From the NCBI RefSeq assembly GCF_030687145.1, contig NZ_CP117460.1, positions 1,426,001 through 1,490,000 of the forward strand: a stretch of DNA of 64,000 bases, written 5' to 3'. The DNA comes from Pseudomonas sp. FP1742 (GTDB lineage Bacteria > Pseudomonadota > Gammaproteobacteria > Pseudomonadales > Pseudomonadaceae). Below are positions 4,644 to 24,174 of the stretch, piece by piece; the stretch's first letter is position 1; every line of letters begins with the position of its first letter. The notes under the pieces were generated by a model. It made no database searches and was not told the origin of the DNA. It was given only the letters and a program-made list of their open reading frames with translations. The position numbers and the translations under genes are program-made.

Positions 4644-5422
4644 TGACTTACACCACCAATGAAATGATGACCGTCGCCGCCGCCCGCCGCCTGAAAAACG
4701 GTTCGGTGTGCTTCGTTGGTATCGGCCTGCCGTCGAAAGCCGCCAACCTGGCGCGACTGACGTCCTCGCCAGATGTAGTCCTGATCTACGAATCGGGTCC
4801 GATTGGTGCCAAGCCCAGCGTACTGCCGTTGTCGATCGGTGACGGCGAGCTGGCGGAAACCGCCGACACCGTCGTCCCGACCGGTGAGATTTTTCGCTAT
4901 TGGTTGCAGGGCGGGCGCATCGACGTCGGCTTCCTCGGCGCCGCGCAAGTCGACCGCTTCGGCAACATCAACACCACGGTGGTCGGCGACTACCATCAGC
5001 CGAAAGTTCGCCTGCCGGGTGCAGGTGGCGCGCCGGAGATCGCCGGTTCCGCCAAGAGCGTGCTGATCATCCTCAAGCAGTCGGCGCGTTCGTTCGTCGA
5101 CAAGCTCGACTTCATTACCTCGGTTGGTCATGGCGAGGGCGGTGATTCGCGCAAGCGTCTCGGCCTGCCGGGCGCCGGTCCTGTCGGCATTATTACCGAC
5201 CTGTGCATCATGGAACCGGAAGCCGGCACCCATGAATTCGTGGTCACCGCGCTGCACCCAGGGGTGACCCGCGAGCAAGTGATCGCGGCCACCGGTTGGC
5301 CGATTCGTTTTGCCGACACCGTTGAAAACACTGCCGAGCCAACTGAAGTCGAGTTGACCGCGCTGCGTGATCTGGAAGCCCGTACCGCGGCGGCCCACGG
5401 CCAAGCACCCGGAGAAGCCTGA
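4643..5422 (+). CDS. pcaJ: PcaJ, 3-oxoadipate CoA-transferase subunit B
   Basis: 259 residues, CoA transferase family I, beta subunit. The likely catalytic glutamate is Glu50 in the motif YESGPIGA, equivalent to the SENG-type motif of the family. It works with PcaI. It overlaps pcaI and pcaF by one base at each end, so pcaI-pcaJ-pcaF form one translationally coupled unit. Confidence 0.9.
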
Positions 5423-6624
5423 TGCGTGACGTTTATATCTGCGACGCGATTCGCACCCCCATCGGCCGTTTCGGCGGTGGCCTGTCGGCGGTTCGCGCCG
5501 ATGACCTGGCCGCCGTGCCGATCAAGGCGCTGATGGCGCGCAACCCGTCGGTGGACTGGAACGCGGTGGACGAGGTGTTCCTCGGCTGCGCCAACCAGGC
5601 CGGCGAAGACAACCGCAACGTGGCTCGCATGGCGTTGCTGCTGGCGGGGCTGCCGGAAACCATTCCGGGTGTCACCCTCAATCGCCTCTGCGCTTCGGGT
5701 ATGGACGCTATCGGCACTGCGTTTCGGGCCATCGCCAGCGGTGAGATGGAGTTGGCGATTGCCGGTGGCGTCGAATCGATGTCCCGCGCGCCGTTCGTGA
5801 TGGGCAAGGCCGATGCGGCGTTTTCACGCAACATGAAGCTGGAAGACACCACCATTGGCTGGCGTTTCATCAACCCGTTGATGAAAGCCCAATACGGTGT
5901 CGATGCGATGCCGCAAACTGCCGATAACGTGGCCGACGATTACGAAGTTTCCCGCGAGGATCAGGACGCTTTCGCCCTGCGCAGTCAGCAACGGACAGCC
6001 GCCGCGCAAGCCGCAGGATTTTTCGCCGAAGAAATCGTTGAAGTGCGCATTGCCCACAAGAAGGGTGAAACAGTGGTCAGCCAGGACGAACATCCTCGCG
6101 CCGACACCACGCTCGAAACCCTGGCCAAACTCAAACCGGTCAACGGCCCGGACAAAACCGTCACCGCCGGCAATGCCTCGGGTGTGAACGATGGCGCGGC
6201 GGCGCTGATTCTGGCCTCGGCCGAAGCGGTGAAAAAACACGGCCTGACCGCCCGCGCCAAAGTGCTCGGCATGGCCAGTGCCGGCGTCGCGCCACGGGTG
6301 ATGGGGATCGGTCCGGTGCCGGCGGTGCGCAAATTGACCGAGCGCCTGGGCCTGGCGGTGAGCGATTTCGACGTGATCGAACTCAATGAAGCCTTCGCCA
6401 GCCAGGGTCTGGCGGTGCTGCGTGAACTGGGGCTGGCGGATGACGCGGCCCAGGTCAACCCCAACGGTGGCGCCATTGCCTTGGGCCATCCGCTGGGCAT
6501 GAGCGGTGCACGTTTGGTACTGACCGCACTGCATCAACTGGAAAAGACCGGCGGCACGAAAGGCCTGGCGACCATGTGCGTGGGTGTCGGCCAGGGTCTG
6601 GCCTTGGCGATCGAACGGGTCTGA
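5422..6624 (+). CDS. pcaF: PcaF, 3-oxoadipyl-CoA thiolase
   Basis: 400 residues, the standard thiolase length. It cleaves beta-ketoadipyl-CoA with CoA to succinyl-CoA and acetyl-CoA. The acyl-accepting Cys90 is in [10 protein letters not shown]; the second catalytic pair is His356 (in IALGHPLG) and Cys386 (in MCVGVGQG). It overlaps the pcaJ stop codon (TGATG) and completes the pcaIJF unit. Confidence 0.95.
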
Positions 6625-6677
6625 CACGCTTGGCTGTGAATAAGAAGCGTCGACTAATAAGAACTGAGGAAAGCGCA

Positions 6678-7382
6678 ATGACTGACAAACCTGGTTACCG
6701 TCGCCCGCAAGCGGGCACTCAGCCGGAATACCTGCACCCTCCTTATCAATCCACCAACCTTCGCTCGCCGTCCAAGCCGTTGGTGTTTTTGCCTCATTCG
6801 CTGTCGGAAATCACCGGCCCGACCATCGGCGCCGAGCGTATTCAGGAGCGGGACAACGACCTGACCGCCCAGCACTCGGGCGAGCCATTGGGTGAACGGA
6901 TCATCATCCACGGCCGTGTGCTGGATGAGGACGGCCTGCCGGTGCCGGGCATTCTGGTGGAGATCTGGCAGGCCAATGCCGCCGGTCGTTACAACCATGC
7001 CCGCGACCTGCACGACGCGCCGCTGGACCCGAACTTCACCGGCACCGGTCGTACCGTGACCGACGCCGAAGGTTGGTATCAGTTCCAGACCATCAAGCCC
7101 GGTGCTTATCCGTGGGGTAACCACCATAACGCCTGGCGCCCGGCGCATATCCATTTCTCCCTGTTCGGGCCGAGTATTCTGACGCGCCTGGTGACCCAGA
7201 TGTATTTCCCGGGTGACCCGTTGCTGGCCTACGACCCGATCTACAACTGCGTGCCCGATACCAGCGCCAAAGAGCGTTTGATCGCCAGTTTCGACCTGGA
7301 AAAAACCATCCCTTCCTATGCCCTCGCTTATCGTTGGGACATCGTTTTGCGCGGCCGCGACGCCACGCCGATGGAGAAATAA
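6678..7382 (+). CDS. pcaH: PcaH, protocatechuate 3,4-dioxygenase beta subunit
   Basis: 234 residues; the start at 6678 follows GAGGAAAGCGCA and gives the family N terminus. Intradiol ring-cleaving dioxygenase subunit holding the non-heme Fe(III). The expected iron ligands are Tyr105 (AAGRYNHA), Tyr144 (GAYPWG), His157 and His159 (RPAHIHFS). With PcaG it converts protocatechuate and O2 to 3-carboxy-cis,cis-muconate. One base separates its stop codon from the pcaG start. Confidence 0.95.
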   Translation: MTDKPGYRRPQAGTQPEYLHPPYQSTNLRSPSKPLVFLPHSLSEITGPTIGAERIQERDNDLTAQHSGEPLGERIIIHGRVLDEDGLPVPGILVEIWQANAAGRYNHARDLHDAPLDPNFTGTGRTVTDAEGWYQFQTIKPGAYPWGNHHNAWRPAHIHFSLFGPSILTRLVTQMYFPGDPLLAYDPIYNCVPDTSAKERLIASFDLEKTIPSYALAYRWDIVLRGRDATPMEK

Positions 7383-12176: not shown

Positions 12177-13436
12177 TTACAGCAGGCTGATCGGGTAGCT
12201 GACGATCAACCGGTTCTCGTCGAATTCGTTGTTGCTGAAGTCGCGGCGGATGGTGGAGTTACGCCATTTGACGTTGAGGTCCTTGAGTGCGCCGCTCTGC
12301 ACGGTGTAGCCCAGTTCGCTTTCACGGCCCCATTCCTTGCCGTCGCTGGTGGTGGCGGTGTGTACGTTGTCGCCGCTGATGTAGCGGTTCATCAGGGTCA
12401 GGCCCGGCACGCCCAGAGCGGCGAAGTTGTAGTCGTGGCGCACTTGCCAGGAGCGTTCCCTGGCGTTGTCATAGCTGGAGTTGTAGCTGTCGTTGGCCAG
12501 GGTGCCGCCGCTGGTGCCGTTGACCCGCATCCAGGCGTTGTCGCCGGTGAGTTTTTGCAGGCCGACGTAAAAGGTGTTGCCACCGTATTTGGCCGAGAAC
12601 AGGCCCGACCAGGTCTTGTTGTCCAGCTCGCCCGCCCGGGCGCTGCCGTCATCCTTGCCGTAGAAGAACCCGAGATTGGCGCCCAGGGTCCAGTCGCCCA
12701 GCGGCTGGGTGTGGATCAGGTTGATATATTGCTGGCTGTAGATGTCCTTGAGTTCAGCATTCCACAGGCCGATCTGAGTGCGCTTGTCGTTGAAGACGTA
12801 TTCGCCGCCCTGGAAGTTGAAGCGGTCTGAGGTGAACGCCGCTTTGCCGGTCATCGACATGTCATTCATGCTGCTGTCGTCGCGCGGGCTGTTGGCGCGG
12901 AACTGGCCGCCGTAGAGCGTCAGGCCATTGATTTCCTTCGAGGTGATCTGGCCACCACGGAAAGTTTGAGGGAGCGAGCGACCGTCGTCCGAACGCAGGA
13001 TCGGCAGCACCGGCATCCATTCGCCGACTTTCACTTCGGTCTGGGACAGCTTCGCCTTGAACGCCACATTGGTGCGGCCAAAGTTGTCCGCCGGGCGACC
13101 ATCGTGATCCAGCGGCAGCAACTGCGTACCGCCAGTGCCTTTACCGCCGTCGAGCTTGACCGAATACAACCCCAGCACGTCCATGCCGAACCCGACGGTG
13201 CCCTGGGTGAACCCGGATTTTGCGTCGAGGATGAAGCTTTGTGTCCACTCTTCAGCCTTGCCCTGAGCCTTGGTCGGATTGGTGAAGTTACGGTTGATGT
13301 AGAAGTTGCGCAGGTTCAGGTTGACCTTGGCGCCTTCGACAAAGCCCGCTTCCTCGGCCATGGCGGGCAGGGCCGCACCGGCCAGTGCGATGGCGATCAG
13401 GCTGGGAAACAAATACTGCGGGGTGGAGGAAGTCAT
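12177..13436 (-). CDS. OprD-family outer-membrane porin
   Basis: 419 residues with a signal peptide (cleavage near residue 27, LPAMA/EEAGF) and the OprD-type 18-strand barrel pattern: FVEGAKVNLNLRNFYINRNF at the mature N terminus, frequent alternating hydrophobic strands and a terminal NRLIVSYPISLL. OprD/Occ porins take up carboxylates; OccK members handle aromatic acids such as vanillate and benzoate. Its place next to the pca cluster and a PcaR-type box 215 bases upstream suggest it admits protocatechuate or 4-hydroxybenzoate. The exact substrate is inferred. Confidence 0.88.
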   Translation of the reverse strand: MTSSTPQYLFPSLIAIALAGAALPAMAEEAGFVEGAKVNLNLRNFYINRNFTNPTKAQGKAEEWTQSFILDAKSGFTQGTVGFGMDVLGLYSVKLDGGKGTGGTQLLPLDHDGRPADNFGRTNVAFKAKLSQTEVKVGEWMPVLPILRSDDGRSLPQTFRGGQITSKEINGLTLYGGQFRANSPRDDSSMNDMSMTGKAAFTSDRFNFQGGEYVFNDKRTQIGLWNAELKDIYSQQYINLIHTQPLGDWTLGANLGFFYGKDDGSARAGELDNKTWSGLFSAKYGGNTFYVGLQKLTGDNAWMRVNGTSGGTLANDSYNSSYDNARERSWQVRHDYNFAALGVPGLTLMNRYISGDNVHTATTSDGKEWGRESELGYTVQSGALKDLNVKWRNSTIRRDFSNNEFDENRLIVSYPISLL

Positions 13437-13650
13437 GGGCTCGGGTCTCTCTAATTGTCAGGGATAAAGCAGTACACAGCCGCAACCAAGAGGTCGCAGA
13501 CACAAGAATCGAATTCGGATAAAGGATCGGGTCAGCCGGAGCGGGGAGGGCGCGTAGTCATGGTGTCGGACCTTGTTGTTATTGATTTTGCAGGTGCGGG
13601 CAATGGTGCGAGGGATGGACAGGGGGATTCAATTGGGTGGATGGGGTTTT

Positions 13651-13665
13651 GGGCGATTATCGAAC
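13651..13665 (-). promoter_or_regulatory. Putative PcaR operator upstream of the porin gene
   Basis: Read on the minus strand this is GTTCGATAATCGCCC, identical over 15 bases to the box before pcaR at 1000-1014. A degenerate second half (GTCGATTAGCG on the minus strand) adjoins it at 13664-13674. It implies that the porin belongs to the PcaR regulon. Confidence 0.6.
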
Positions 13666-13808
13666 GCTAATCGACGCCAGCCGGGACACGGACGGTATGA
13701 GGCATTCTTAATCAAATCCTATCGTTATTCGGGTTGATAACAGGTATCCGGGTGCGTGTTTTATGAATGGCGCTTTTTATGTTAGATGGAAGTGCTTAAT
13801 GCTTTGGT

Positions 13809-13826
13809 TGTAAGAAGCTTCTTACA
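13809..13826. promoter_or_regulatory. Perfect palindrome upstream of the RiPP cassette
   Basis: TGTAAGAAGCTTCTTACA is a perfect 18-bp palindrome about 215 bases before the precursor gene. It overlaps a second inverted repeat, TTACAG-6-CTGTAA at 13822-13839. Such sites usually bind a dimeric regulator; no regulator gene is in the cassette, so the protein is unknown. Confidence 0.4.
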
Positions 13827-14039
13827 GTTATTTCTGTAATTAAAGATATATGGGTAATCGCCAGTTAAACTTAAGGATTGGCATTATCGGTTATCGTGAA
13901 AAGATTTAAAGACAGTTGCTGACATTGCTGGAAAACAAAGGAGGTCTTGCTATATTCAAAATCCTCAGGGCAGGCAAAGGAAATTTATGCCTCGTCAGGA
14001 GTACTTTTTTATCAGGCTGAAATAACAAGGAGAAACACC

Positions 14040-14303
14040 ATGCCCACAAGAGCTGTTAATCAGGAGCGTCTTGCTACGGTTTTAGGTCGCGCCCTTCTCG
14101 ATAAGGAGTTTGCTGAGCAACTGCATAAAGACACCGAGGCCGCTGTAAAAGGAATAGGTGTGCACTTAACTGCTACTGAACTCGCAGCCGTAAAGAACAT
14201 TGATACTGCAAAGCTGGGAAGTGCCGGCGCGGGTATTCGCGACAAGTTGGGTAATGCCGCGATATTCGACCAACAACAGAATGTACAGGCACAAATGGAT
14301 TAA
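14040..14303 (+). CDS. Putative RiPP precursor peptide, NHLP/Os1348-like leader
   Basis: 87 residues; start chosen at 14040 after a strong AAGGAG. The leader (about residues 5-56) has the pattern of Nif11/NHLP-clan precursors of the Os1348 and Franean1_4349 type: ATVLGRALLDKEFAEQL, AAVKGIGVHLTATELAAV, then Asp55. The presumed core (about 57-87) is Gly/Ala/Gln-rich, contains AKLGSAGAGIRDKLGN, has no Cys, Ser at only one position (61), and ends in Asp87. It is the first gene of a cassette with three modifying-enzyme genes. Leader/core boundary and product are inferred. Confidence 0.75.
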   Translation: MPTRAVNQERLATVLGRALLDKEFAEQLHKDTEAAVKGIGVHLTATELAAVKNIDTAKLGSAGAGIRDKLGNAAIFDQQQNVQAQMD

Positions 14304-14314
14304 CGATCGGTGAT

Positions 14315-14367
14315 GCCGTTTGGCGTGCCACGTAAAGCCGGTCGATTTGTGCGGTACGCCAAATGGC
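14315..14367 (+). promoter_or_regulatory. Long hairpin between precursor and enzyme genes
   Basis: Arms GCCGTTTGGCGTGCC (14315-14329) and GGTACGCCAAATGGC (14353-14367) pair over 15 positions in RNA, 13 Watson-Crick and 2 G-U, with a 23-base loop. It begins 12 bases after the precursor stop codon. There is no T-run. A stabilising or attenuating hairpin at this place would raise precursor output relative to the enzymes. Confidence 0.55.
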
Positions 14368-14417
14368 TCGATTCAATACCAGTACAACAACGTGGTCGAA
14401 CAGGGAGTGAATGCCCC

Positions 14418-14894
14418 ATGTCTGTCACCCTGGCTCCAATGGATAACGCGGATTTCGTGACGTTCGCCGAAAGAGCCGTTGCCGAGTATGGCCAGGGCAT
14501 GGTCGCCTCAGGTGAGTGGGGGCGGGAAGAGGCATCGCAAAAGTCCAGGAACGTCTTCGAGCAATTGTTGCCGCAAGGGCGACTGACTGAAAACAATCAA
14601 CTCTGGGTAATCAAGGACGAAGACCGGCGCATCGGTGAACTGTGGATCGCCCTGCGACATGCCGGTACCCGGCTGAGCGCTTTTATTCTGGATATCTACA
14701 TTGAGCCCGGCGAACGCCGTCGGGGTTATGCCAGGCAATCAATGTTGGCCGCCGAGTCGTGGGCGCGCCAGGCGGGGTGTGAGGAAATACGCTTGCATGT
14801 ATTTGGCCGCAACGAGGCGGCTCGTGGTCTTTATGAACAACTGGGTTATGGCATCGCCAGTCTGACGATGGCGAAGCCGTTGCCGTCTGCCTAA
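14418..14894 (+). CDS. GNAT-family N-acetyltransferase of the RiPP cassette
   Basis: 158 residues from ATG 14418 (MSVTLAPMDNADF), preceded by GGGAG. C-terminal GNAT fold: strand ILDIYIEPGERRRGYARQSM holds the acetyl-CoA binding R/Q-x-x-G-x-G/A motif (about residues 96-107), followed by EIRLHVFGRNEAARGLYEQL, the usual beta5-alpha4 part. It resembles general RimI-like acetyltransferases. Placed between precursor and other maturation genes with a 15-base gap to the next gene, it may acetylate the peptide, give self-protection, or be a passenger; the first is favoured by operon position. Confidence 0.8.
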   Translation: MSVTLAPMDNADFVTFAERAVAEYGQGMVASGEWGREEASQKSRNVFEQLLPQGRLTENNQLWVIKDEDRRIGELWIALRHAGTRLSAFILDIYIEPGERRRGYARQSMLAAESWARQAGCEEIRLHVFGRNEAARGLYEQLGYGIASLTMAKPLPSA

Positions 14895-14909
14895 GGGAAG
14901 GTTTGAAAA

Positions 14910-16070
14910 ATGGATATCGGGAACAGTGGACAACGTGAGTTATCCGTCGACGATTTATTTCAAGGCACGACATTTCTCCCTGATACGGAGTCCTCTCGAT
15001 TTGACGTATTACTGGAGCGTGTCAGCCGAAATCGTTATACGACTTTTACTGTGCTGTATGCCGAACTTTTCAGACTGTTTCCCGATTCACCACGCTTGGC
15101 CGTCTTTTTTGAACAAGCGGTGAATCTTATATTGCTTGAGTCTCAGGAGCAGCATCCGATTATTAATGATCCGGTATTTCAGATATGGCAGGGGCTGACG
15201 TTTCGTCATACCAATCTGGTGTTGACCGAAAAATCTGAAGAGACAGGCGAGTTGGAAAAACTGCTGATCGGATTTCCCGATATGCTGGCGCGGGTAAAGG
15301 CAAAAGATACATCCCGTTTGATTCATGATTGCCCGCCGGTGTATCGATTCGATGTCGATCCGCTCATCGCGATGGCGGCACCACCCAGTTATAAGTTTCC
15401 GGAAGATGAAGCGACCCGCAAGCAATTGGAACGTGATGGTCACCCAGTGCGTTTCTTTAGCGATATCGTGAGTATTGCCTTGTTGCGAATAGAGCACACC
15501 TGGCCCGCCTGCCATGAGCGGTTCAAGAAGCTGGTCAAGGCCATTTGTTATTTGCCCGATGGCTCATTTCGAAGTTGTTCGGCGTCCCGTTACACCGGGG
15601 TCATCCTGTTGTCGAGCCGGGACAATTCGATACTCGATCTGGAAGAGTCACTGGTGCATGAGGCCACTCATCAACTGCTCTATTACATTGTCGAAATGTG
15701 CCCGGTGATCGAAGAAGTCGCCTCGCGGGAGGCGTCGTTCACCCTGCCGTGGTCAGGGCAGAAGCGTGATTTGTACGGCTATTTTCATGCGTTTTACGTG
15801 TATATCGCATTGGTCAAATACCTGGAGCGGGTCCGCTCGCGCTCGTCCGATGAGTTGCAGCGAGCGCAAAACCGACTGGCGTTCATCATGCGAGGATTGA
15901 TCCGGGCCTTGCCGGATCTGCAAGCCAGTGGCGATTTCACGCCCCAGGGACGCCAGCTTCTGGAAAACCTGGCCAAAGAAGTCAGGGCACTGGAGAGCAA
16001 GCACGCCGGGTTAATGGCCAAGACGGCGCCGGCGACAGTGCCTGAGCGTGCGCTGGGTGCGACCGCTTGA
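14910..16070 (+). CDS. HExxH-type putative peptide-modifying enzyme
   Basis: 386 residues. Metal-binding His250-Glu251-Ala-Thr-His254 lies in SLVHEATHQLLYY, with a likely third ligand His293 in LYGYFHAFYVY. The length and arrangement match the HEXXH-motif family found with RiPP precursors, recently recognised to include Fe/2-oxoglutarate peptide beta-hydroxylases rather than proteases. No signal peptide; cytosolic. Flanked at 15-base spacing by the acetyltransferase and the MNIO-SagB gene. It probably hydroxylates Asp, Asn or another residue of the precursor. Its first 500 bases are more AT-rich than neighbouring genes, hinting at transfer. Confidence 0.78.
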   Translation: MDIGNSGQRELSVDDLFQGTTFLPDTESSRFDVLLERVSRNRYTTFTVLYAELFRLFPDSPRLAVFFEQAVNLILLESQEQHPIINDPVFQIWQGLTFRHTNLVLTEKSEETGELEKLLIGFPDMLARVKAKDTSRLIHDCPPVYRFDVDPLIAMAAPPSYKFPEDEATRKQLERDGHPVRFFSDIVSIALLRIEHTWPACHERFKKLVKAICYLPDGSFRSCSASRYTGVILLSSRDNSILDLEESLVHEATHQLLYYIVEMCPVIEEVASREASFTLPWSGQKRDLYGYFHAFYVYIALVKYLERVRSRSSDELQRAQNRLAFIMRGLIRALPDLQASGDFTPQGRQLLENLAKEVRALESKHAGLMAKTAPATVPERALGATA

Positions 16071-16085
16071 GCCCGGGAGGCGATC

Positions 16086-18056
16086 ATGGCGATGTTTGAT
16101 GCTGCGCAATTTCCCGAGGCAGGGGTAGGGCTGGAATACCACTTGCCGCGACGCGGTCCTCGGCATGACAGTTCGCAGGAAGGGCTTGATCCAACCGTCG
16201 AACGGATTCTCGCCGAGGGCCTGCCGCACTTTGACTATGTCGAATTTCAGCCGACCCATTGCATCCTCGAGCCGCGCTTGCTCGAGGTCGGCGTGCAGAC
16301 ACCGAGCCTGCTGCATTCGTCCAGTTTGTCCCTGGGCAGCGTGGGGATCGCGATGGATCGCGAATTTCTGAACATGACGCGGCGACTGTGCGACAAAACC
16401 CGCTCGCCGTGGCTGGCCGAGCATATTTCCTGGTCGCGTTTCCACGGTGGCGACACGCAGCATTTCATTTTGCCGACCCTGGCCCAAGAGGTGGCTGACA
16501 CGGTGGTGGCCAATGCCATCGAATTGCGCGAGCTCACGGCCACACTGCTGGTGCTGGAAAACGCGCCGCGCTTGTTTTCATTCTCGGGTGGAGAAGAACT
16601 GCCCGAAGGTGAATTCATCTCCAGTGTGGTGGAGCGCAGCGGGGCGGGTTTCCTCCTGGATCTGGACAGCGCGATGGCGACCGCCAGAACCCAGGGGTAT
16701 GACCTGAACGACTATTTGCGTTCGTTGCCGCTGGACCGATTGATTGAGGTTCACACCGGCCATCCGCAGCGGGATTGGGAGATCTTGCGCCAACTGTTCG
16801 CCTCATCCCCGGTGAAAGCGATCACCCTGGAGTGGGATATTTCCCGCAGAACCGATGACGCGGAACTGCTGACGTTGATCAAGGCCATCAAGTCCTTGAA
16901 GCCCAAGGCCCTGTTCTGGCGGGGCCGTAATCAACAGGGCGCGCAAGAGGCCCTGGCGGAGGATGCGCAGACTCCTTTGCGACTCAGGGAGAGCACCTGG
17001 CTCAGCATCGGGACGGAGTCGTTTTTTATTCGGGATCGGCAACGAGACCTGAGCCTGGAGTTTGGCGCGACGTTGCTGCCGTTACTGCGCCATTTCCTGA
17101 GCCCGCAAACGCTGGAAAGTGCCTTGTTGCTGCCGGGTGTTTTGCAAAGTCCTGCACAGGACGACAACCTGGCGTTTCTGAGGACACTGGTCAGCCAGGG
17201 TGTTTTGCTGCCCGTGGCGAATCAATCGGATTCGGTCACCTGTAACGAAGGTAAGCATCCGCTCAACCTTTGGACCCGCTGGGACGCCGCGCTGGAGTTT
17301 TACCTGAGTACCCGGACCGGCTCGCACACGCCCTACATCAGCGTTGCCGAGCTGGATACGGAGCTGGAGCAAAAGGCCTCGACGCAACGCCAGCCCTCGG
17401 CGTTCAAGGACTATTGGTCCCATCCGTTCATCGCCCTGGAAAATCCGCTGCTGACGCCCTGTGCGATCACTCAGCCGACGCTGCTGGACTCGCTGTGCAA
17501 TCGCCGCACGTCACGAACCTTCAGCGACCAGCCGTTGAGTTCGGCGCAACTGTCTTTGTTGCTCTATTACACCTGGGGCGCGACCGTCATGGAGCAGAAC
17601 CGCATGGGCGACTACTTCCTGAAGAAGACCTCGCCGGCCGGCGGATCGCTGCAGGGCACCGAGGTGTATGCGGTGCTGATGAACGTGCAGGGTTTCGAGC
17701 GGGGGCTTTACCACTATTCAGTACGCCGTCATGGGCTTGAGCTGATTTCCCTGGAAGATCCGCGAACCTGGATCAGCGAGGCCTGTGGTGGACAGGCGTG
17801 GATCAAGGATGCGGCAGCGGTGTTCGTTTCCACGGCGCGGGTCGAGCGAATGGCCTGGAAATACGAGTTCAGCCGCGCACTGCGGGTGGCGCTGATGGAT
17901 GCGGGGCATCTGAGTCAGACCTTTTCACTGCTGGCCACCGCCCTGGGCCTGGGCAGCTTCACCACTGCGGCGTTACGCGACGAGATGTTCGAAAATCGCT
18001 TGGGGCTCGATTATCTGGAGGAGCCGGTGTTTCTGGTCAACGGAGTCGGGGGGTGA
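16086..18056 (+). CDS. MNIO (DUF692)-SagB fusion, putative bifunctional RiPP oxidase
   Basis: 656 residues in three parts. Residues 12-285 are a DUF692/MNIO domain (multinuclear non-heme iron oxidase; relatives MbnB, TglH): candidate metal ligands His77, Glu112-His113 (AEHISW), Glu158 (LENA), Asp192, His223 and His226 (VHTGH), Glu249 and Asp251 (EWD). The usual Asp-Val-Asn-Asn motif is Asp-Leu-Asp-Ser (192-195). Residues about 300-378 look like a PqqD/winged-helix segment that could bind the leader. Residues 440-656 are a SagB-type FMN dehydrogenase (RRTSRTFSDQPL 473-484, SPAGGSLQGTEVY, ATALGLGSF). No partner protein gene (MbnC-like) is present; the middle domain may replace it. Confidence 0.8.
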   Translation: MAMFDAAQFPEAGVGLEYHLPRRGPRHDSSQEGLDPTVERILAEGLPHFDYVEFQPTHCILEPRLLEVGVQTPSLLHSSSLSLGSVGIAMDREFLNMTRRLCDKTRSPWLAEHISWSRFHGGDTQHFILPTLAQEVADTVVANAIELRELTATLLVLENAPRLFSFSGGEELPEGEFISSVVERSGAGFLLDLDSAMATARTQGYDLNDYLRSLPLDRLIEVHTGHPQRDWEILRQLFASSPVKAITLEWDISRRTDDAELLTLIKAIKSLKPKALFWRGRNQQGAQEALAEDAQTPLRLRESTWLSIGTESFFIRDRQRDLSLEFGATLLPLLRHFLSPQTLESALLLPGVLQSPAQDDNLAFLRTLVSQGVLLPVANQSDSVTCNEGKHPLNLWTRWDAALEFYLSTRTGSHTPYISVAELDTELEQKASTQRQPSAFKDYWSHPFIALENPLLTPCAITQPTLLDSLCNRRTSRTFSDQPLSSAQLSLLLYYTWGATVMEQNRMGDYFLKKTSPAGGSLQGTEVYAVLMNVQGFERGLYHYSVRRHGLELISLEDPRTWISEACGGQAWIKDAAAVFVSTARVERMAWKYEFSRALRVALMDAGHLSQTFSLLATALGLGSFTTAALRDEMFENRLGLDYLEEPVFLVNGVGG

Positions 18057-18086
18057 AGTGAACAGGCTGGTTTATTCACGGCCAAC

Positions 18087-18111
18087 AAAAAGCCCACCAA
18101 ACGGTGGGCTT
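18087..18111. terminator. Bidirectional rho-independent terminator
   Basis: Stem AAGCCCACC/GGTGGGCTT (18090-18098 and 18103-18111) with a 4-base loop. On the minus strand it is followed by a run of T (from AAAAA at 18086-18090), so it clearly ends ttgABC. On the plus strand it is the only hairpin after the MNIO-SagB gene and could end the RiPP transcript too. Confidence 0.85.
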
Positions 18112-18127: not shown

Positions 18128-19588
18128 TCAGAACAACCTCATCTTCGGCGCTTCTTCTTTCAACGGCTCGTTCTTCGCCGTCTGTTCATTCCAGCCACCG
18201 CCCAACGCCTTGTACAGGTTGACCGCGCTGGTCAGCTGCGCCAGACGGTCGGTGATCAGTGCCTGTTGGGCACTGAACAGCTGGCGCTGGGCATCGAGGA
18301 AGGTCAGGTTGCTGTCGACCCCGATGCGATAACGACGCTCGGCCAGACGGTAGTAGTCCTGGTTGGCGCTGACGAAATCACGCTGAGCCTGCAACTGCTC
18401 GGTGTAGGTCTGGCGGGCAGCCAGGCCATCGGCGACTTCCTGGAAGGCCGTTTGAATGGACTTCTCGTAGTTCGCCACGCTGATGTCTTTCTGGATCTTG
18501 GAGTAATCCAGGCTGGCGCGCAGGCTGCCGGCGTTGAAGATCGGCAGGTTGATTTGCGGCTGGAACAACCAGGTGCCCGAACCACCCTTGAACAGACCGG
18601 ACAGGTCCGGGCTCAGGGAACCGGCATTGGCGGTCAGGCTGATGCTCGGGAAGAACGCAGCCCGCGCCGCGCCGATGTTGGCGTTGGCGGCCTTGAGGTT
18701 GTATTCGGCCTGGAGGATGTCCGGGCGACGTTGCAGCAAGTCCGAGGGCAGGCCTGCCGGCACGTCGCTCAGCAGGTCATCCGACAGTGGCTTGGCCGCT
18801 TGCAGATTGGCCGGGATACCGGTGCCGAGCAGCAACACCAGACTGTTTTCATCCTGGGCGACCTGACGGGTGTACTTGGCCTGTTGCGCACGGGCGTTTT
18901 CCACCGAGGTACGCGACTGGGCCAGATCCAGCGCCGAGGCTACACCCACTTCGTTGCTGCGCGAGGTGAGCTTGAAGCTCTCCTCGTAGGCTCCGAGGGT
19001 TTCCTGGGTCAGTTTCAGCAGTTCCTTGTCGGCCTGCCAGGTCAGGTAGGCATTGGCCACGCTGGCCACCAGACTGATCTGCGTGCTGCGCCGTGCTTCT
19101 TCAGTGGCGAAGTACTTCTGCAGGGCTTCTTCGCTCAGGCTGCGCACCCGACCGAACAGGTCGAGTTCATAGGCGCTGATGCCGACGGTAGCCGAGTAGG
19201 AGCTGCTGATGGCCGCTTCACCGGTTTGCGAGGCCCGTGCCGGAACCCGCTGACGGCTGCCGCTGCCGGTGGCCGAAACCGCCGGGAACAGATCAGCGCG
19301 CTGGATGCGGTATTGAGCCGCATAAGCGTCGATGTTCAGCGCCGCGACACGCAGGTCACGGTTGTTTTCCAGCGCGGTCTGAATCACCTGTTGCAGCGCC
19401 GGGTCGTGGAAAAACTGCTTCCAGCCCTGTTCGGCGGCGGCCTGGTTGGGCGCCTGGGCCGACGAGTACGCCGGGCCTTGCGGGTATTGGCCCGCCACCG
19501 GTGCTTCAGGCCGCTGATAATCGGGTATCAGCGAGCAGCCACTTAGCACGAAGGCGGTGACTGCCAGGGAGAGTAGCGACTTGCTCAT
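18128..19588 (-). CDS. ttgC: TtgC/OprM-type outer-membrane efflux channel
   Basis: 486 residues. Outer-membrane lipoprotein: lipobox LSGC with Cys18, then two repeats of the outer-membrane efflux protein family (about 60-270 and 280-470) forming the trimeric beta-barrel and alpha-helical tunnel. Third gene of the ttgABC operon; its ATG overlaps the ttgB stop codon by one base. It exports drugs and solvents with TtgA and TtgB. In other pseudomonads the equivalent is OprM or EmhC. Confidence 0.92.
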
Positions 19589-22500
19589 TAGCCAGCCTCT
19601 TGAGGAGTTTTAATGGCGTCATCCTGGTCGGCGACTTTGCGCTGGCCCATGGACGACACGGTAACGAAGAACAACGGGACCCAGAAGATCGCCAGGATCG
19701 TGGCCGTGAGCATACCGCCAATCACCCCGGTACCGATCGCATGTTGGCTACCCGAACCTGCACCCGTGGAAATGGCCAGCGGTACCACGCCGAGCACGAA
19801 CGCGAGCGAGGTCATGATGATCGGTCGCAGACGCATCCGGCAGGCTTCGATCGCTGCATCGCGCAGGCTACGTCCTTGCTCATGCAGTTCCTTGGCGAAC
19901 TCGACGATCAGAATGGCGTTTTTCGCCGCCAGACCGATGGTGGTCAACAGCCCCACCTGGAAATACACGTCGTTGGACAGGCCGCGCAGGCTGGTCGCCA
20001 TCAGCGCACCGATAATCCCCAGCGGCACGACCAGCATGACCGCGATCGGAATCGACCAGCTTTCATACAACGCCGCCAGGCACAGGAACACCATCAGCAG
20101 TGACAAGGCGTACAACGCGGGTGCTTGCGAGCCGGACAGACGCTCCTCATACGACAGACCGGTCCAGGAAATACCGACACCGGCCGGCAGTTTCTTGGCC
20201 AGTGCTTCGACTTCGGCCATGGCTTCACCGGTGGAATAGCCGGGCGCCGGGGCACCGAGGACTTCCATCGCTTCGACGCCGTTGTAACGGGCCAGTTTCG
20301 GCGAACCGTAGATCCATTCACCCCTGGCGAACGCCGAGAACGGAACCATGGTGCCGGCGCTGTTGCGCACGTACCACTTCTTCAGGTCTTCAGGGCTCAT
20401 CCGAGCGCCGGGCAGGCCTTGCACGTAAACCTTCTTCACTCGACCGCGGTCGATGAAGTCGTTCACATAGCTACTGCCCAGGGCAATCGACAGAGTGTTG
20501 TTGATGTCGGTGAGGGTCACACCCAGGGCGCTGGCCTTCTCATCATCGATTTCCAGTTGGTACTGCGGTTCGTCATTCAGGCCGTTCGGACGGACTTGCG
20601 ACAAGACCTTGCTTTGCGCCGCCATGCCGAGGAACTGGTTACGGGCTTCCATCAGTTTGTTGTGACCGAGCCCGGCGCGGTCCTGAAGGAACACGTCGAA
20701 ACCGGTGGCGTTACCCAGTTCCAGTACCGCCGGTGGCGCGAAGGCAAACACCATGGCATCGCGGAAGGTAAAGAAGTGCTGTTGGGCACGGGCCGCCAGT
20801 TTGAACACGCTGTTGTCGGCGTTACGTTCATCCCACGGTTTGAGCATGATGAACGCCATGCCCGAACTCTGACCACGGCCGGCGAAGTTGAAGCCGGTCA
20901 CGGTAAACACCGAGGCCACCGCATCGCCTTCGCCGCCATCCTTGCTCGGACGCAGCAGGAACTCGCGCATCTCGTCCACGACCACTTGTGTGCGCTGGGA
21001 GCTGGAACCGGCCGGGGTTTGCACCTGAGCGAACAGTACGCCCTGGTCTTCTTCGGGCAGGAACGCCGTTGGAATGCGGGTGAACAGCCAGATCATGCCG
21101 ACCACGATGATCAGGTACGCCAGCAGGTACGGCGCCTTGTGGGCGAGCATGTTGCCCACGCCACGCTCGTAGCTTTTGACGCCACGGTCGAAGTTGCGGT
21201 TGAACCAGCCGAAGAAGCCGCGTTTCGGCGTGCCGTGCTCGCCTTTCGGAATCGCCTTGAGCATGGTGGCGCAGAGCGCCGGGGTGAAGATCAATGCAAC
21301 CATCACCGACAAGGCCATGGCCGAAACGATGGTGATCGAGAACTGCTTGTAGATCACACCGGTGGAGCCACTGAAGAACGCCATCGGCAACAGTACCGCC
21401 GACAACACCAGGGCGATGCCGACCAGGGCACCCTGGATCTGCCCCATGGATTTCTTGGTGGCCTCCTTGGGTGACAGGCCTTCTTCGCTCATGACCCGTT
21501 CGACGTTTTCCACCACGACGATGGCATCGTCCACCAGCAAACCGATGGCCAGCACCATGCCGAACATGGTCAGGGTGTTGATGCTGAAGCCGAATGCCGC
21601 GAGGATCCCGAATGTACCCAGCAATACCACCGGCACGGTCATCGTGGTGATGACGGTGGCGCGGAAGTTCTGCAGGAACAGGAACATCACCAGGAACACC
21701 AGCACGATCGCTTCGACCAGGGTTTCAACCACACCCTTGATCGATTCGGTCACCACCGGGGTGGTGTCGTACGGGAACACCACTTCCATCCCTTGCGGGA
21801 AGAACGGCTTCAGGTCATCGATGGTTTTACGCAGGGCCTTGGCGGTATCGAGGGCGTTGGCACCGTTGGCCAGTTTCACCGCCAGACCGGAGGCCGGGCT
21901 GCCGTTGAACTGGGCGCTGACGCTGTAGTTCTCGCCGCCCAGGCCGACTTCGGCGACGTCTTTGAGACGAACCTGCGAGCCGTCCTTGTTGACCTTGAGC
22001 AGGATTTCCTTGAACTGCTCGGCGGTCTGCAGACGGGTCTTGCCGATAATCGTAGCGTTCAGTTGCTGGCCGGGCAGGGCAGGCAGGCCGCCGAGTTGAC
22101 CGGACGAGATCTGGACGTTCTGCGCCGCGATGGCGGTTTTCACGTCCACCGGGGTCAGGTTGAAGTTGTTCAACTTGGCCGGGTCGAGCCAGATTCGCAT
22201 CGCGTACTGGGCACCGAAGACCTGGAAGTCACCGACACCGGCGGTCCGCGAGATCGGGTCCTGCATGTTCGACACGATGTAGTTGGACAGGTCGTCCTTG
22301 GTCATGCTGCCGTCGCGCGATACCACGCCGATGACCATCAGGAAGTTTTTCACCGACTTGGTCACGCGGATACCCTGCTGCTGCACTTCTTGCGGCAGCA
22401 GCGGGGTGGCCAGGTTCAGTTTGTTCTGGACCTGAACCTGCGCGGTATCGGAGCTGGTGCCCTGCTCGAAGGTCGCGGTAATGGTCATGCTGCCGTCGGA

Positions 22501-22749
22501 GTTACTTTCCGACGACACATAACGCAGGTTGTCGATACCGTTGAGCTGTTGCTCGATCACCTGCACCACGGTGTCCTGCACGGTTTGTGCAGACGCGCCA
22601 GGGTAAGTCACGGAGATCGCAATGGCCGGAGGCGCAATGCTCGGGTATTGGTTGATCGGCAGCTTGAGAATCGATAAAGCCCCGACCAGCATGATCACCA
22701 GGGCAATTACCCAGGCGAAAATCGGACGGTCGATAAAAAATTTCGACAT
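19588..22749 (-). CDS. ttgB: TtgB, RND multidrug/solvent efflux pump
   Basis: 1053 residues, the standard length of the HAE1 RND family (MexB, AcrB, TtgB). N terminus [20 protein letters not shown]; twelve membrane helices with two large periplasmic loops; the proton-relay Asp-Asp pair is in [17 protein letters not shown] of helix 4. The inner-membrane pump takes antibiotics, solvents and plant compounds from membrane and periplasm. It starts 3 bases after ttgA and overlaps ttgC by one base. Confidence 0.95.
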
Positions 22750-22752
22750 GGT

Positions 22753-23910
22753 TTACTCCCCTTTGCCGCCGACAGCGATTTTGGCTGTCTGTGCGGGGGC
22801 CGGGCTCTTGGCGCCAACGTTGGTGGCTTCAGTGGCCTTGACTTCAACGCCAGGTCTGACGAATTGCAGCCCTTCGGTGATCAGGCGATCGCCAGCCTTC
22901 AGGCCATCTTCAATCAACCATTGGTTGCCGACAGTACGGCTGGCTTTGAGCTGACGCAGTTCGACCTTGTTGTCCGGACCCACGACCAGTGCGGTCGGGG
23001 TGCCTTTGAGGTCGCGGGTCACGCCTTGTTGCGGAGCCAGAATCGCCGCGCTGTTCACGCCGGATTGCAACTGCGCGTGAACGAACATGCCCGGTAGCAG
23101 GGTGTGATCAGGGTTCGGGAACACGGCGCGCAGGGTCACGGAGCCGGTGGTCTGGTCTACCGAGACTTCAGAGAACTCGAGCTTGCCGTCCAGTTTGTAC
23201 TGGCTGCCGTCTTCTAGGGTCAGCTTGACCGCGGCGGCGTTGTCGCCCGCTTTTTGCAGACGACCGCTTTCCAGTTCACGGCGCAGCTCAAGCAGCTCCA
23301 CCGAGGACTGGGTCACGTCGACGTAGATCGGGTCCAGTTGCTGGATGACCGCCATGGCGTCGCTCTGGCCGCTGCTGACCAGCGCGCCTTCCGTCACCGA
23401 CGAACGGCCGATGCGACCGGAGATCGGTGCGTAGACCTTGGTGTAGCGCACGTTGATCTGGGCGCTCTGCAGAGACGCTTCCGATTGCAGGCGGTTGGCC
23501 AGTGCCGTGTCGTATTCCTGACGGCTGACGGCCTGCTCGTCGACCAGTTGCTTGTAGCGATCCGAGATCGACTTGGTCGAACGCAGGTTGGCTTCAGCGC
23601 TTTTCAGGGTCGCGTCATAGACCGACGGGTCGATCTGATACAGCTGCTGACCGGCCTTGACGTCGCCGCCTTCCTTGAACAGTCGTTTAAGAATGATGCC
23701 GTTGACCTGTGGGCGAACTTCGGCGATGCGGAACGCACTGGTGCGCCCCGGAAGTTCGGACGTCAGGGTGAAGGCTTGTGGTTGCAGGGTTACGACGCCG
23801 ACCTGAGGGGTGGGTGCGGCAGGTGCCGCCTCTTCCTTTTTACATCCGCTGAGCAGCGATGCCAGGGCGAGGGCAGTAACCAGAGCGGTAACAGCTGGCT
23901 TGAATTGCAT
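22753..23910 (-). CDS. ttgA: TtgA, RND efflux periplasmic adaptor
   Basis: 385 residues from ATG 23910, preceded by GAGGATCTTC. Lipoprotein with lipobox LLSGC (Cys22), lipoyl-like and hairpin domains (RPQVNGIILKRLFKEGGDVKAGQ), beta-barrel and membrane-proximal domains: a membrane fusion protein of the MexA/AcrA type. A longer reading to 24117 would put the start inside the operator region and before the signal sequence, so it is rejected. First gene of the operon, divergent from ttgR. Confidence 0.93.
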   Translation of the reverse strand: MQFKPAVTALVTALALASLLSGCKKEEAAPAAPTPQVGVVTLQPQAFTLTSELPGRTSAFRIAEVRPQVNGIILKRLFKEGGDVKAGQQLYQIDPSVYDATLKSAEANLRSTKSISDRYKQLVDEQAVSRQEYDTALANRLQSEASLQSAQINVRYTKVYAPISGRIGRSSVTEGALVSSGQSDAMAVIQQLDPIYVDVTQSSVELLELRRELESGRLQKAGDNAAAVKLTLEDGSQYKLDGKLEFSEVSVDQTTGSVTLRAVFPNPDHTLLPGMFVHAQLQSGVNSAAILAPQQGVTRDLKGTPTALVVGPDNKVELRQLKASRTVGNQWLIEDGLKAGDRLITEGLQFVRPGVEVKATEATNVGAKSPAPAQTAKIAVGGKGE

Positions 23911-23997
23911 GAAGATCCTCGGGTCAGGCGCGCATGTTGCGCACAAGAAAGGTGGAAGGTTAAAAAATTTTACCGGGTGGATAAGTAGCTTGCTAAG

Positions 23998-24028
23998 GAA
24001 TATACTTACGTTCATGGTTGTTTGTAAA
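23998..24028. promoter_or_regulatory. TtgR operator in the ttgA-ttgR gap
   Basis: Read on the minus strand, 24028-23998 begins TTTACAAACAACCATGAACG and continues with TAAGTATATTC. This agrees at nearly every base with the TtgR operator as known from P. putida, which overlaps both divergent promoters. TtgR bound here represses ttgABC and itself and is released by drugs or plant phenolics. Confidence 0.85.
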
Positions 24029-24174
24029 GGCCTTGGCGGCGTATCCACACGGTTACAAAATCCGTTCAAAGGTTTGAATTGTAGGCCTGAGACGAAGCCC
24101 GAGAGCGCTCGTCCCACTTTTATTCAGCGGATATTCAGACATCGCTGAGGCACCCTGATTGAGGTTGTACTGCC

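Follow-up and report, generated by a model that had tools for sequence, protein, structure and literature searches.

The DNA analysed here, referred to as the window, is a 64,000-nucleotide (nt) stretch of Pseudomonas sp. FP1742 (contig NZ_CP117460.1, positions 1,426,001 to 1,490,000). The element under study is a cassette of four genes for a ribosomally synthesized and post-translationally modified peptide (RiPP), which encode a small precursor, a GNAT acetyltransferase, an HExxH enzyme and an MNIO-SagB fusion protein (Table 1). An earlier prediction, made from the sequence alone (hereafter, the original prediction), had placed these genes in this order on the plus strand, with an Os1348/NHLP-type precursor and 15-base gaps between the enzyme genes, and all of this was confirmed: the GNAT-HExxH and HExxH-fusion gaps are 15 bases each, and 114 bases separate the precursor and GNAT genes. 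In total, 20 cassette loci were compared, namely the window, 11 loci from named contigs and eight from a survey of 398 genomes of the genus, a sample that contains the window's own genome (three survey genomes already represented were left out). The four genes have the same order and direction in all of the 20, including the probable locus of Pseudomonas sp. Os17; thus, the arrangement is not due to chance.

Table 1. Features of the cassette and its surroundings in the window. Gene names of the efflux pump follow the Os17 table in PMC7726476.
Feature	Position	Strand	Basis or remark
Inserted segment (about 4.4 kb) that carries the cassette in full, flanked by an oprD-type porin gene and emhC	13668..18080 (approximate)		Comparison with empty sites
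Putative GacA site, exact Gac box (TGTAAG-AAGCTT-CTTACA)	13809..13826		Starts 231 nt before the precursor ATG
Most conserved upstream block, TTATCGTGAAAAGATTTAA	13891..13909	+	Highest-ranking 19-nt window in the 20 loci
Likely promoter: CTGGAAA (13928-13934) and extended -10 TTGCTATATT (13947-13956)	13928..13956	+	TTGCTATATT in 20/20 loci
AAGGAG ribosome site, corresponding to the potential RsmA/E site published for Os17	14027..14032	+	AAGGAG in 19/20 loci
Precursor, Os1348 family, 87 amino acids (aa), core FDQQQNVQ and tail AQMD	14040..14303	+	NF038399 profile, PDB match
GNAT acetyltransferase, 158 aa, PflB/Os1349 counterpart	14418..14894	+	PF00583, 61.4 bits
Alpha-ketoglutarate-dependent (aKG) HExxH peptide hydroxylase/cleaving enzyme, 386 aa, PflC/PosC/Os1350 counterpart	14910..16070	+	HEATH at residue 250
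MNIO-SagB fusion, 656 aa, PflD/Os1351 counterpart	16086..18056	+	PF05114 and TIGR03605
Stem-loop, terminator of emhC by origin	18092..18109	-	Hairpin in empty sites
emhC, outer-membrane part of a resistance-nodulation-division (RND) pump, Os1352 counterpart	18128..19588	-	Os17 table
emhB	19588-22749		Follows emhC; Os17 table
emhA-like frame	22753-24117		Follows emhB; Os17 table

Profile searches revealed that the precursor scores 70.9 bits with NCBIfam NF038399 ("Os1348 family NHLP clan protein"; cut-off 40), and it matches PDB entry 6lk7 over residues 5-87 (E-value, 1.9e-33). The title of this entry, "Nitrile hydratase, alpha chain", is the annotation given to Os1348 in PMC7726476, and 6lk7 is taken to be the crystal structure of Os1348 from that paper. 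The HExxH enzyme belongs to the family TIGR04267 ("aKG-HExxH-type peptide beta-hydroxylase"; 122.5 bits, cut-off 40). In the fusion, the MNIO half scores 96.6 bits with PF05114 (cut-off 25) and the SagB half 116.4 bits with TIGR03605 (cut-off 78.4). Across 27 aligned fusions, the MNIO half has His77, His113, His126, Glu158, Asp192 and His223 without exception, and His77 is probably the counterpart of PflD His73, a pair that was not directly aligned. For the GNAT gene, the ATG at 14418 was chosen over the GTG of the open reading frame list, as homologues align from the first residue in 20/20 loci.

The original prediction had regarded the cassette as undescribed. Instead, it corresponds to cluster OS3 of Pseudomonas sp. 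Os17, reported in 2020, in which Os1348-Os1351 are followed by the same efflux genes (PMC7726476), and to the pfl and pos clusters of a 2025 preprint (PMC12636437). The other expectation, that of a single RiPP pathway yielding an oxidised and hydroxylated peptide, agrees with nuclear magnetic resonance and mass spectrometry results on these homologous pfl/pos clusters (PMC12636437). PosC beta-hydroxylates the Gln run of its precursor and oxidatively cuts off the C-terminal ARMD, leaving an amide, PflD forms Z-dehydro-Phe and hydroxy-Asp, and PflB had no detected activity, its co-expression adding no mass change (PMC12636437). PflB is the counterpart of the GNAT, to which the original prediction had tentatively ascribed an acetylation of the peptide. 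In Os17, loss of Os1348 lowered antibiotic activity (PMC7726476).

OS3 shares with the window the four genes, their order and the site beside the RND pump, and it is GacA-controlled in Os17 (PMC7726476); its tail is ARMD and it carries a version of the Gac box with three mismatches at the same place, whereas the window has the tail AQMD, an interrupted Gln run (QQQNVQ) and an exact box. Genome G061 is probably that of Os17, with gene coordinates that agree with PMC7726476, and the published core of PosA is the tail of its locus (L033). Between the window and G061, identity is 74% for the precursor, 60% for the HExxH enzyme and 64% for the fusion. The pfl cluster (P. fluorescens CH267) and the pos cluster have their PflA-D counterparts in the window, and the core AAIFDQQQ is common to PflA and the window precursor; relative to PflA, the end of the window precursor has Asn-Val for Gln-Ile, and Gln for Arg in the tail. 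The HExxH enzyme also has a sequence match to ChlH (PDB 8s5f) over the HExxH region (E-value, 1.1e-9). The introduction of PMC12636437 describes earlier aKG-HExxH enzymes as beta-hydroxylases acting after cyclophane formation, and ChlH would be the cyclophane-linked one among them. The window cassette is thus a real member of the Os1348/pfl/pos RiPP family, an ordinary pathway that has already been described. What looks new is the AQMD tail in a small clade, the exact Gac box, the signs of exchange and the precursor-HExxH pairs that occur without a fusion.

In the genus survey, the full fusion was detected in 12 of the 398 genomes, the precursor family in 17 (18 places) and HExxH homologues in 21 (22 places). 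The original prediction would have been refuted by enzyme genes consistently lacking the small gene; in a partial run of this comparison, all of the 12 fusion genomes have the precursor family, and 18 of the 22 HExxH homologues lie beside a precursor gene, while four have no adjoining one. Among 398 genomes sampled across the phylum, the full fusion was found in the own genome and in one other of the genus, and the SagB part alone matched in three further genomes, of which two belong to the genus and one to another family. The protein database also holds fusions of 45-49% identity (P0080, P0087, P0089 and others), from sources such as Allosphingosinicella, Terriglobales and Bryobacteraceae. 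An apparent split of MNIO and SagB in locus L034 was traced to undetermined bases in the record, and the distances and the tree of the fusion cover the other 19/20 loci.

The limits of the segment that carries the cassette were derived from cassette-less loci, 29 of which were fetched from 58 genomes with an emhC match. An oprD gene lies near emhC in 22 of the 29, with a gap of 169-1036 bases (under 450 in 21). These empty-site gaps match the window up to about 13667 (22/22) and resume near 18081, which indicates that the sequence between them is an extra segment. In the cassette loci, both oprD and emhC were detected in 18/20; L029 has emhC alone, and L012 (P. batumici) has neither. In some loci, additional sequence separates the fusion gene from emhC, with a maximum of about 4.5 kb (L009). 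To the left of the cassette lie what we take to be pcaB-, pcaD- and pcaC-like genes and an OprD-type porin gene.

The stem-loop behind the fusion gene had been assigned to the cassette as its terminator. However, the hairpin GCCCACC...GGTGGGC occurs at the 3' end of emhC in 16/22 empty sites (19/22 with the GCCCGCC version), so it belongs to emhC by origin. Its longer T-run is on the minus strand, and it is unlisted by a consensus scan of the region. The statement that the cassette has no transporter holds for the four genes themselves; it does not hold for the neighbourhood, as the convergent RND pump follows directly and is counted in the published clusters.

Upstream of the precursor gene and inside the inserted segment lies an exact match to the Gac box consensus TGTAAGN6CTTACA, as printed in PMC11837529. 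The 6.67 Mb genome has two exact Gac boxes (at the cassette and at rsmY) versus one site of a reversed control pattern; with one mismatch allowed, it has six sites, rsmZ among them, versus five for the control. In 28 further genomes chosen by the authors (11 with the cassette and 17 without), exact boxes were found in 27, with 31 sites versus five control sites. The loci of 27 of these 31 sites were fetched, and 24 of the boxes lie at RsmY (23) or RsmZ (1) genes, while one belongs to the GM50 cassette (L109). Two loci of this set, L099 and L110 (both near 1501-1518; L110 in the probable Os17 genome), have exact boxes with no Rfam small RNA (sRNA) nearby; these could represent rsmX or other direct GacA targets.

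A box with at most two mismatches is present at -222 to -235 in 13/20 cassette loci (none in three, one in eight and two in two); it is exact in the window, L005 and L008. Within these 13 loci, which were picked for the box, favouring the result, the half-sites are 92% identical, the spacer 68% and the region 74%; of the other 379 windows, 11 equal or exceed the half-site score. Over all 20 loci, the half-sites are 73% identical and the region 63%. The centre of the box is about 146 bases before the predicted transcription start (near 13963), compared with about 66 for rsmY and 180 for rsmZ, as measured to the Rfam starts. At the 22 empty sites, the best version has 3-6 mismatches. Because the exact box lies inside the insert, is absent from the empty sites and is kept in 13/20 loci, GacA may activate the operon directly through this predicted site.

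It is also quite conceivable, if short of probable, that the box is unused and that GacA acts only via RsmX/Y/Z and RsmA/E at AAGGAG, as proposed for Os17. Takeuchi and colleagues linked the regulation of Os1348 by GacA with a potential RsmA/E site and found an Os1348'-'lacZ translational fusion to be GacA-dependent in Os17, and neither "Gac box" nor "TGTAAG" appears in the main text of that report (PMC7726476). Several observations weigh against direct control and for this explanation. A convincing box is missing in 7/20 loci: L012, L013, L029, L031, L032, L033 and L034 have 3-5 mismatches, a fit that shuffled sequences reached in 46 to 300 of 300 cases. One of the seven is the probable Os17 locus, for which GacA control has been measured; its version has three mismatches, equalled by 50/300 shuffles. 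In the own genome, the control pattern itself has one exact and five one-mismatch sites. On the other hand, the box is exact in three loci and has one or two mismatches in 10 more at a near-constant distance, and its half-sites are more conserved than its spacer (in loci picked for the box). In other genomes, 24/27 examined exact sites coincide with RsmY/RsmZ genes and one more with a cassette, and the empty sites have 3-6 mismatches at best.

Direct activation of the operon at the Gac box could be combined with the published route. GacA would switch on transcription of the cassette, while the RsmX/Y/Z that it induces would free the mRNA from RsmA/E, giving a coherent feed-forward switch with wiring like that of the Rsm sRNAs; together with a product shifted in this clade by the natural tail AQMD and by Asn within the hydroxylated run, this scheme is put forward tentatively, its chances being judged somewhat below even. 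GacA in P. aeruginosa is reportedly, according to the title of a 2009 paper, confined to acting exclusively through two sRNAs. The available parts of the literature searched (including PMC12724241, PMC11837529, PMC9927353, PMC7911923 and PMC2375449) contained no Pseudomonas biosynthetic operon under direct control of GacA; for Dickeya, a direct GacA-type case is cited by PMC12724241, and PMC9927353 describes two potential new GacA targets in P. aeruginosa. In the fluorescens group, direct control of a biosynthetic operon by GacA could be cleanly tested with the box, which is the one lead with reach, the probability of such control being moderate.

The comparison of individual genes suggests that the precursor-HExxH half has been exchanged between close relatives. 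Between the window and L027, identity is 98-99% for oprD and emhC, 90% for the fusion, 74% for the HExxH enzyme and 59% for the precursor, while the values for the window versus L003, which has the same precursor type, are 90%, 88% and 84% for these three cassette products. At the nucleotide level, the window versus L004/L027 is 92-98% identical in oprD and just after it, 66-85% at about 13740-16340 and 81-99% beyond; against L003, the middle stretch is 76-93% identical. The precursor tree resolves two types, of 9 and 11 loci (100/100), and the same split is found in the HExxH tree (98/96). Both the oprD tree and the fusion tree, the latter weakly supported there, mix the precursor types among close relatives. 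Alternatively, this half may simply diverge faster. Exchange would be in keeping with the HExxH protein as the enzyme that reads the variable tail.

The window precursor ends in FDQQQNVQAQMD, PflA in FDQQQQIQARMD and PosA in FDTQQQQARMD. All of the shared elements are present in the window as FDQQQNVQ-AQMD, that is, Phe-Asp, a Gln-rich run and a four-residue tail with Ala first and Met-Asp last. The tail is AQMD in 2/20 cassette loci (window, L003) and ARMD in the other 18; among 13 precursor homologues from the protein search, four have AQMD, eight ARMD, and one is a tail-less fragment. The exact sequence ARMD was not treated as family-defining: although called completely conserved, only its Ala was critical in mutants (PMC12636437). 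PosA-R92A was fully modified and cleaved, A91Q and A91V abolished cleavage while hydroxylation continued, and in a Q90N mutant the Asn was hydroxylated, so that Asn can replace Gln as substrate (PMC12636437). Since Arg is dispensable, Ala critical and Asn accepted, a precursor with AQMD and QQQN should be processed, and by analogy cleavage is expected before AQMD. A mass formula that reproduces the published changes of PosA (-410 Da) and PflA (-394 Da) predicts, for the action of the HExxH enzyme, -366.17 Da when four Gln and the Asn are hydroxylated and AQMD is lost to give an amide, or -382.17 Da when the Asn is spared. Addition of the fusion, with -2 Da at Phe and +16 Da at Asp, would change these values to -352.19 or -368.19 Da. 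The AQMD/QQQN end is thus a natural test of the published rule that only the Ala of ARMD is critical.

Judged by analogy, the cassette very probably encodes an Os1348/pfl/pos-type pathway with a variant tail. In this pathway, about residues 1-70 form an NHLP-type leader that would present the C-terminal end to the enzymes. The aKG/Fe-dependent HExxH enzyme would first beta-hydroxylate the Gln (and probably Asn) run and then oxidise AQMD at the alpha-carbon of its Ala, so that these four final residues are released and the shortened peptide ends in an amide. In the fusion, the SagB-type half would convert Phe to Z-dehydro-Phe, and the MNIO half would hydroxylate the Asp that follows. The leader might be removed by a host protease, the GNAT would presumably act late, and the product may be exported by the neighbouring RND pump; expression of the cassette would be controlled by GacA through RsmA and possibly also by direct binding to the Gac box. 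For pfl/pos, the reactions of the HExxH enzyme and of the fusion have been shown by others; that the window enzymes have the same activity and cut at AQMD is inferred. Three points weigh against this assignment: the AQMD tail departs from the complete ARMD conservation published in PMC12636437; PosD was inactive in E. coli, and the fusion chemistry therefore rests on PflD alone; and PosC and PflC each modified the precursor of the other incompletely, so that specificity differs between family members (PMC12636437).

The clade may differ in one step. AQMD is a natural departure from an otherwise fixed tail, and the loss of cleavage with retained hydroxylation in PosA A91Q/A91V (PMC12636437) indicates that a switch is easy; the HExxH enzyme might thus hydroxylate the Gln/Asn run without cutting, and the clade would make an uncut multi-hydroxyl peptide. 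This is unlikely, as the critical Ala is retained and PosA-R92A was fully processed. It is far less probable that the HExxH protein is a plain protease with the small protein as its substrate and no hydroxylation in the cell: PflC did cut truncated peptides hydrolytically at the same site (PMC12636437), and the Os1348 protein rose in Os17 on loss of Os1350 (PMC7726476), but full-length PflA was not hydrolysed without oxygen, and full-length peptides did not react in vitro unless alpha-ketoglutarate was present (PMC12636437). A pathway of the thiazole/oxazole-modified microcin type, discussed in PMC7726476 and suggested by the SagB domain as an azoline oxidase, is hardly credible, since the precursor has no Cys, the core AAIFDQQQNVQAQMD lacks Cys, Ser and Thr, Z-dehydro-Phe was demonstrated for PflD (PMC12636437), and YcaO was not among the flanking genes identified, for which no dedicated search was made.

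Six loci (L085-L090) carry, in the direction of the cassette at about 5000-6700, an Os1348-family precursor and an HExxH homologue of 54-57% identity, with neither GNAT nor fusion in their open-frame lists. Their genomes have no fusion match, except for G079 at its other locus. The cores are FDQQQVRTD (4/6), FDQQRIRMD (1/6) and VDPQQARTN (1/6). These loci resemble the window in the Os1348-family leader and HExxH enzyme, and differ in their neighbouring genes and in the residue that takes the place of the cleavage Ala, which is Val, Ile or Ala. The natural Val of four of them mirrors the laboratory mutant A91V, which was hydroxylated instead of cut, and for the L086 pair hydroxylation of this Val with no cleavage would be expected.

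As regards the other upstream elements, the degenerate pattern of TTATCGTGAAAAGATTTAA has one exact site in the genome (the cassette) and one site with one mismatch, and from these sites no regulon could be assigned to the block. The promoter of Table 1 is listed by a consensus scan, in which the number of sites found is at chance level. No sRNA of the Rsm type was found between the box and the precursor in an Rfam search of 13300-14500 (E-values up to 5; Rfam coverage of RsmX unchecked), and an RsmA-presenting hairpin in the leader was rejected, as the fold of the 101 nt that start at 13962 is no more stable than those of shuffled sequences (z, 0.96). In P. batumici (L012), the shared upstream sequence starts near the block TTATCGTGAAA and the Gac box is missing (alignment by eye).

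Four more HExxH homologues (L091-L094; 48-51% identity) are found in genomes without a precursor-family match. In L093 and L094, the homologue lies directly upstream of a gene for a protein of about 1,900 residues, and in L093 this large protein has a ToxA_N domain.

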